A DNA stretch of 45,436 nucleotides from a virus, in the IMG/VR virus record IMGVR_UViG_3300023281_000916, positions 1 through 45,436 of that record, one strand, 5' to 3'. Positions 43,407-43,635 of this stretch are shown one piece after another; the first letter of the stretch is position 1; every line of letters starts with the position of its first letter. The position numbers and the translations under genes are program-made. The notes under the pieces were generated by a model. That model was not told the origin of the DNA and did not search any database. It was given only the letters and a program-made list of their open reading frames with translations.

Positions 43407-43635
43407 GGTCGGTCGGTTGGTTGGTCGGTCAGCTTCTCATGCAAGCTACTAACATCGTATGTGTGAGTGTAGGTAGTGAGTTTGCCATCACTTTGAGGAT
43501 GTGGTAGACCTTGGTGGTAGGGTGCTACAGTAGTTAATTTTTTTTTTTTTTTTTTCTAACTACAGTAGAGAAGGTACCTAGGTCTATGCAGGGTCAGCTA
43601 AGGCGTCTATTGACCGACCGACCGACCGACCGATT
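43407..43635. repeat. Nested inverted repeat around an 18-T run (origin candidate)
   Basis: Outer arms are six GGTC/GGTT tetramers (43407-43430) facing five GACC plus GATT (43612-43635). A middle pair is TAGACCT (43505-43511)/AGGTCTA (43580-43586). The inner perfect 12-bp pair is CTACAGTAGTTA (43525-43536)/TAACTACAGTAG (43557-43568). The centre is an unbroken run of 18 T (43538-43555). No gene covers it. Base skew reverses nearby, DnaA-like boxes lie to the left and dyads flank it, so a replication origin or packaging/control site is the favoured reading. Confidence 0.6.

Follow-up and report, generated by a model that had tools for sequence, protein, structure and literature searches.

How a terminal repeat is duplicated from concatemers that carry one copy of it is an old question, studied mainly in phage T7. 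In 1990, Chung, Nardone and Hinkle reportedly described a hairpin-ended intermediate at the T7 concatemer junction. A hairpin form has been proposed as an intermediate of T7 maturation (in passages of PMC4281155). Phage N4 has direct terminal repeats and primes from a hairpin at the 3' end, preferentially at the right end (sections of PMC3896407). Members of Cobavirus (Riovirinae) are DTR phages with a conserved G+C-rich region at the 5' end of the DTR, and the inverted repeats once described at the ends of SIO1 were, in the authors' judgment, most likely placed wrongly and unlikely to take part in replication (both in excerpts of PMC6775973). The cultured Caulobacter phage Kuura (OQ067476) has 606-bp direct terminal repeats, which were determined with PhageTerm from Illumina NovaSeq reads (part of PMC9959647).

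The locus compared here with these systems lies in a tailed-phage virus record of 45,436 bp (the window, i.e., the whole stretch of DNA that was analyzed). On balance, a nested hairpin near one end of this record is likely to be the left half of a bipartite site at the concatemer junction by which the direct terminal repeat (TR) of the phage is set, and it is probably a site at which the ends of packaged DNA are made rather than an ordinary replication origin. The basis is threefold, namely a nested hairpin with an A/T tract whose architecture is conserved, a conserved box, and the left TR boundary of Kuura, which falls inside the corresponding element. A literature search, with subscription papers outside its scope, found no paper describing such an element or box. 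Like the window, T7 has a direct terminal repeat that must be duplicated in maturation. It differs in that scans found neither a box nor a comparable long-range inverted repeat at its 160-bp TR boundary, and no sequence kinship with the window element was shown; the right end of T7 was rejected as a homologue for want of a shared box or comparable repeat. N4 is similar in its direct terminal repeats and in the inverted repeats at its right end, but nothing comparable was found in the final 1.5 kb of its record, and its right end was rejected as a homologue because no repeat there exceeded a score of 10. The strongest repeats in the N4 stretch examined (locus L152) were internal, with several strong inverted repeats at 32.7-33.8 kb in or beside an unannotated stretch between gp47 and gp48. 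Cobavirus also has DTRs, and is set beside the window by description, not by sequence.

The late genes of the window are on the - strand and include those for the capsid (29789-31162), the portal (32278-34224) and the large terminase subunit (TerL, 40154-41719), while the early genes on the + strand encode a Sak4-like protein, a UDG-DNA polymerase A fusion and a DUF3987 protein. The first gene of the late operon is a 229-aa ORF (41719-42408, - strand), taken as a candidate small terminase (TerS) because it precedes TerL and resembles the ORF that follows the box in another contig (L149); it had no match in Pfam or PHROG. On the + strand, a 104-aa ORF (42829-43143) lies within the predicted terminal repeat and is the positional counterpart of Kuura_001/061, which is located within the terminal repeat of Kuura, and a 203-aa ORF (43805-44416) lies beyond the hairpin. 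The sequence-only reading had placed the element between divergent operons. This is right only in a loose sense, since the two flanking ORFs share the + strand and the change of direction towards the terminase operon falls at 42408-42829, not at the element. The two ends of the window share a near-exact direct overlap of 69 nt (1-69 and 45368-45436), with few mismatches, on the outer side, through which the contig closes, a trait of DTR and permuted genomes alike. Exact end overlaps of 123-127 nt were found in four relatives (G002, G003, G008, and G011), and the overlaps in all five genomes are compatible with both a DTR and a permuted genome. A tRNA scan found no tRNA, and a DNA similarity search of the hairpin region against phage records gave no match.

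The outer arms of the hairpin are composed of tandem GGTC units on the left (43407-43431, paired part 43409-43431) and of tandem GACC units on the right (43611-43635, paired part 43611-43633). These (GGTC)n/(GACC)n arms pair over 23 nt with 91% complementarity, and their tandem units were also detected by TRF. Nested within them are the middle arms TAGACCTTGGT (43505-43515) and ACCTAGGTCTA (43576-43586), which pair at 10 of 11 positions and include the 7-bp TAGACCT/AGGTCTA, and the inner arms (43525-43536 and 43557-43568). The apical loop holds T18 on the + strand (43538-43555; A18 on the terminase strand), the longest A/T run of the window, the runner-up being a run of seven T. The tetranucleotide outer arms, the 7-bp arms and the 18 consecutive T of the sequence-only reading were all recovered, as was the tandem repeat GTGAAAGG that it had placed near 42583, which TRF found at 42583-42604 between the box and the TerS gene. 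The nested inverted repeat it described thus stood in its main parts and was corrected in some details, the inner 12-bp arms, called perfect, pairing at only 11 of 12 positions.

Folded as DNA, the element gave a z of -6.9, with none of 200 shuffles equally stable; as RNA, z was -6.1 for the + strand and -4.7 for the - strand, again with 0 of 200 shuffles each. In a scan of the 45 kb, it was the sole inverted repeat of the window with a loop of 60-320 nt and a score of at least 12. A sliding fold-energy scan with segments of 260 nt did not place it as the most stable stretch of the genome, and the repeat-based scan replaced the sliding scan for ranking, both results being reported here. The element stands out through its long complementary arms, not through its fold-energy rank, and the hairpin is real and non-random.

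Since no relatives of the 203-aa ORF were found, TerL was taken as the search query instead, and this search yielded five loci. One of them (L003, 37% identical) had the same plan in other letters directly before the late genes, with outer (TAC)n/(GTA)n arms, two inner stems, and A9 in the loop. A TerL-profile search covered 80 of 170 relatives, and scans revealed comparable elements upstream of TerL at L009, L010-L012, L013, L014, L016, L018, L019, L023, and L035, and at L008 with weak outer arms. The element was also present in all four named phages that were chosen by portal alone (Mel-JY34, VS-ABTNL-3, Kuura, and LS06-2018-MD01). What these elements share is a plan without shared letters, consisting of complementary outer arms that are often built from tandem copies of a short unit, with an A/T tract close to the center. 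The tandem unit varies among relatives (GGTC, TAC, TACC, and GTGAGT-like), so that conservation of the arms in relatives, which had been proposed as a check, was found for their architecture and not for their sequence. G-rich or C-rich runs lie beside the element in many relatives; the window has none.

Eleven complete genomes were compared, i.e., the window, G001, G002, G003, G005, G008, G011, and the four named phages. The outer repeat was the top-scoring long-range inverted repeat in nine of them (second in G008 and sixth in Kuura), and the longest A/T run of the genome lay inside the element in nine (a tie in G008, second in VS-ABTNL-3). The window was given and the six numbered genomes had been picked since the element was already visible at their loci; unselected support for recurrence comes from the four named phages together with G006 and G010. 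The latter two belong to six further contigs without a visible element near TerL that were scanned whole (G006, G010, G012, G013, G014, and G015), and in both the element was present elsewhere than near TerL. Two candidate repeats were found in G013 and a weak hairpin in G012, while the contig ends of G014 coincide with the arms, complementary arms being visible by eye at its ends. Coverage was confined to the TerL-profile loci for G007, G009, and G016, and to the L021 locus and the last 1.8 kb of the contig for G004. The portal outgroups Tiera (whole) and CRP-810 (43.7 of 57.7 kb) had no element. At L035, a second strong inverted repeat (6253-6472, equal to 29652-29871 in G008) lies about 0.5 kb from the element towards TerL, and is the top repeat of G008.

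The second component is conserved in sequence. It is a GGGTACCCTTGCCC-like box, which lies on the terminase strand at a distance of about 0.6-1.2 kb from the hairpin, was found by comparing the sequence before TerS in the relatives, and is often followed by a G run. In the window, the box and its flanking G5/C5 occupy 42686-42715 on the - strand, with the 14-mer core GGGTACCCTTTGCC at 42700-42713; the core (42700) is 0.3 kb before the TerS gene and 696 bp from the right arm of the hairpin, and the window thus has a box-like motif 0.5-1.2 kb towards the terminase genes. A leave-one-out PWM applied genome-wide had its top match at the expected place on the terminase strand in nine genomes (the window, G002, G003, G005, G008, G011, G006, G010, and G013), and G006, G008, G010, and G013 were outside the PWM training set. 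In G001, G012, and G014 the second-best PWM match was taken as the box, and the PWM found no box in Kuura, Mel-JY34, or VS-ABTNL-3. In LS06-2018-MD01 (L090), the top PWM match, at 43097, lies inside the element on the opposite strand. At a PWM score of at least 16, the 18 genomes gave 14 matches against 2.0 expected, and 10 rows (9 sites) were at the expected place. A + strand box scoring at least 15.5 was present in 28 of the 88 loci scanned, a count in which some contigs are duplicates and at least one match is probably due to chance, and which, being filtered on the + strand, is no evidence of strand bias.

Hairpin and box also occur as a pair. Of the 12 genomes with a box, 9 had a best inverted repeat at 300-1600 bp upstream of it that exceeded every interval sampled from that genome (p = 0.0005 each, which is the floor; combined p = 6e-20). 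The pairing was weaker in G010 (p = 0.033) and G012 (p = 0.071), and absent in G014 (p = 0.70). Exact box patterns were found in six stretches of viral contigs, three of them already known and three new. Among the new ones, the box of L149 is preceded at 766 bp by a hairpin and followed by a TerS homologue, while L147 has only 260 bp upstream of the box and its post-box ORF is not clearly similar to the TerS of the window. The third, L150, has no hairpin and looks like a chance match. At eight loci (L015, L020, L030, L041, L043, L045, L076, and L084) no more than 400 bp of sequence precede the box, and in three of them this is 21-31 bp. Contig breakpoints near the box or in the element were set aside as evidence of termini, because repeats too break assemblies.

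Mapped genome ends are available from one phage, Kuura, which is outside the clade of the window. Its record holds both copies of the repeat, 1-606 being identical to 43208-43813. The left repeat boundary at 43208 falls within its element, between A12 (43141-43152), the longest A/T run of that genome, and the right arm (43234-43248). The mature left end of Kuura therefore begins inside the element, and the full hairpin is at the right end of the genome, with its right arm within the terminal repeat. The Kuura element was recognized through its A12 run, its outer repeat ranking only sixth. The pattern CCTTG[GC]C.{0,7}GGGGG, chosen after the relatives had been seen, occurs once in the unit genome of Kuura and ends 18 nt before the right repeat boundary; that this boundary lies just beyond a box-like motif is suggestive only. 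Kuura and the window have the same kind of element and related portal (24%) and capsid (28%) proteins, and in both a nested inverted repeat contains the longest A/T run of the genome. They differ in that the window does not have a related large terminase, TerL of Kuura showing no detectable similarity to that of the window, and in that the box-like motif of Kuura is only degenerate. The transfer of the boundary to the window thus rests on the shared hairpin plan and the portal and capsid kinship, and the single phage with mapped ends is also the least box-like. Hairpins accompany both types of terminase, whereas the box is found mainly with that of the window, as would be expected if the hairpin belonged to replication and repeat duplication and the box to the terminase. 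A likely replication origin or packaging site had been proposed from the sequence; the origin gained no support, while the alternative of packaging and termini was strengthened by the mapped terminal-repeat boundary of Kuura within the corresponding element.

By analogy with Kuura and from the positions of box and hairpin, the terminal repeat of the window is predicted to be about 0.8 kb (42650-43500). It would extend from within the hairpin, with its left boundary in the interval between the A-tract and the outer arm (43431-43538), to just past the box (about 42650-42690). For its duplication, we infer a fold-back mechanism modeled on T7. The terminase would cut or nick near the box, synthesis would proceed back through the TR into the inverted repeat, and the inverted-repeat strand would fold back, yielding the duplicated TR as a hairpin-capped end, from which a cut between the A-tract and the right arm would release the mature left end. 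Copying of one arm from its partner would keep the two complementary while the letters drift as short tandem repeats, and would explain why complementary arms are found with changing letters. Against the concatemer-junction reading stand the PWM box missing in Kuura, Mel-JY34, and VS-ABTNL-3 and the weak or broken hairpins in G012 and G014.

More tentatively, there may be an environmental phage family with a dedicated fold-back device for the TR, the hairpin being its left edge and the GGGTACCCTTGCCC box its right edge, in which the shape is kept while the letters are replaced by new short tandem repeats and which persists across a change of terminase type. We regard this broader proposal as possible, and are inclined to doubt it; if true, the genome ends of uncultured phages would be readable from sequence alone. 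The frame of hairpin plus box is a concrete cis-acting site for TR duplication, in many uncultured phages and in one cultured phage with mapped ends, and would make it possible to predict termini in assembled contigs. Searches based on sequence miss an element of this kind, in which the architecture is kept and the letters are not.

Several other functions can be considered for the hairpin. Symmetric arms and an A/T tract would fit a replication origin at the genome end, where a strand folds into a hairpin and its 3' side primes synthesis as in N4, a precedent with direct terminal repeats of about 500 bp, inverted repeats and hairpin priming (sections of PMC3896407). We consider such an origin unlikely, given that the hairpin of Kuura lies inside the right terminal repeat and not at a free 3' end, that within its final 1.5 kb the N4 precedent itself shows no repeat scoring above 10, and that such an origin would not account for the conserved box on the far side of the interval. 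The sign of the GC skew differs between the two sides of the element in Mel-JY34 (42493-44100 and 1-3000 compared), where the flanking genes are co-oriented, and in Kuura, but does not change there in the window and LS06. In the skew check for an origin put forward in the sequence-only reading, the switch was confounded with gene direction and inconsistent among the four genomes, and GC skew was dropped as origin evidence. An internal origin activated by DnaA or another initiator protein, with tandem-repeat initiator sites beside an A/T melting tract, is quite improbable. The inverted clusters of short tandem units around the A/T tract do resemble the anatomy of an origin, but the tandem unit differs among relatives and could thus not be recognized by a single initiator, and the genome of Kuura ends at the element. 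The two DnaA-like boxes that had been taken as a signal are one-mismatch matches, of which the window has 7 against 10.7 expected, and are meaningless alone.

The stable RNA fold, together with an early-strand ORF before the element in the window and Kuura, from which early transcripts could cross it, would suit an element acting as RNA, i.e., a structured leader, an RNase III site or a non-coding RNA of the early transcript. Such a role is very doubtful in view of the relatives. Rfam 15 gave no match above the gathering score in the window and nine relatives, the A/T tract switches strand among relatives (L009 and VS-ABTNL-3), and the better fold was on the terminase strand in 12 of 18 elements and on the early strand in 6 (p = 0.24), an inconsistency for which a fixed RNA strand was rejected. 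The position near the early/late switch in many genomes would accord with a bidirectional transcription terminator or insulator at that boundary; this too is very improbable, as the loop and arms are far too large for a terminator, the T run lies in the loop and not behind the stem, and a terminator scan had no match at the element. Simple-sequence arms and homopolymers are error-prone in assembly, and contigs L021, L024, and G014 break at the element, but the same architecture is seen in independent assemblies and in cultured phages, so that chance or an assembly artefact is hardly credible. The concatemer-junction site is the reading we prefer to these.

Some further features of the window were observed. 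The fused early gene at 8761-11289 combines a uracil-DNA-glycosylase domain with a family A DNA polymerase, and an ORF at 6395-7894 encodes an N6/N4 DNA methylase (PF01555) whose ParB_N-like N-terminus scored under the Pfam cut-off. At the convergent end of the late region, a 2233-aa ORF (15814-22515) probably encodes an internal virion or ejection protein, as judged by position and size only. A host search in bacterial genomes returned only three MAG contigs. A TerL relative with 43% identity was found on a contig binned as a Rickettsiales MAG (L092, PBOZ01000004.1), which is a possible hint of the host.
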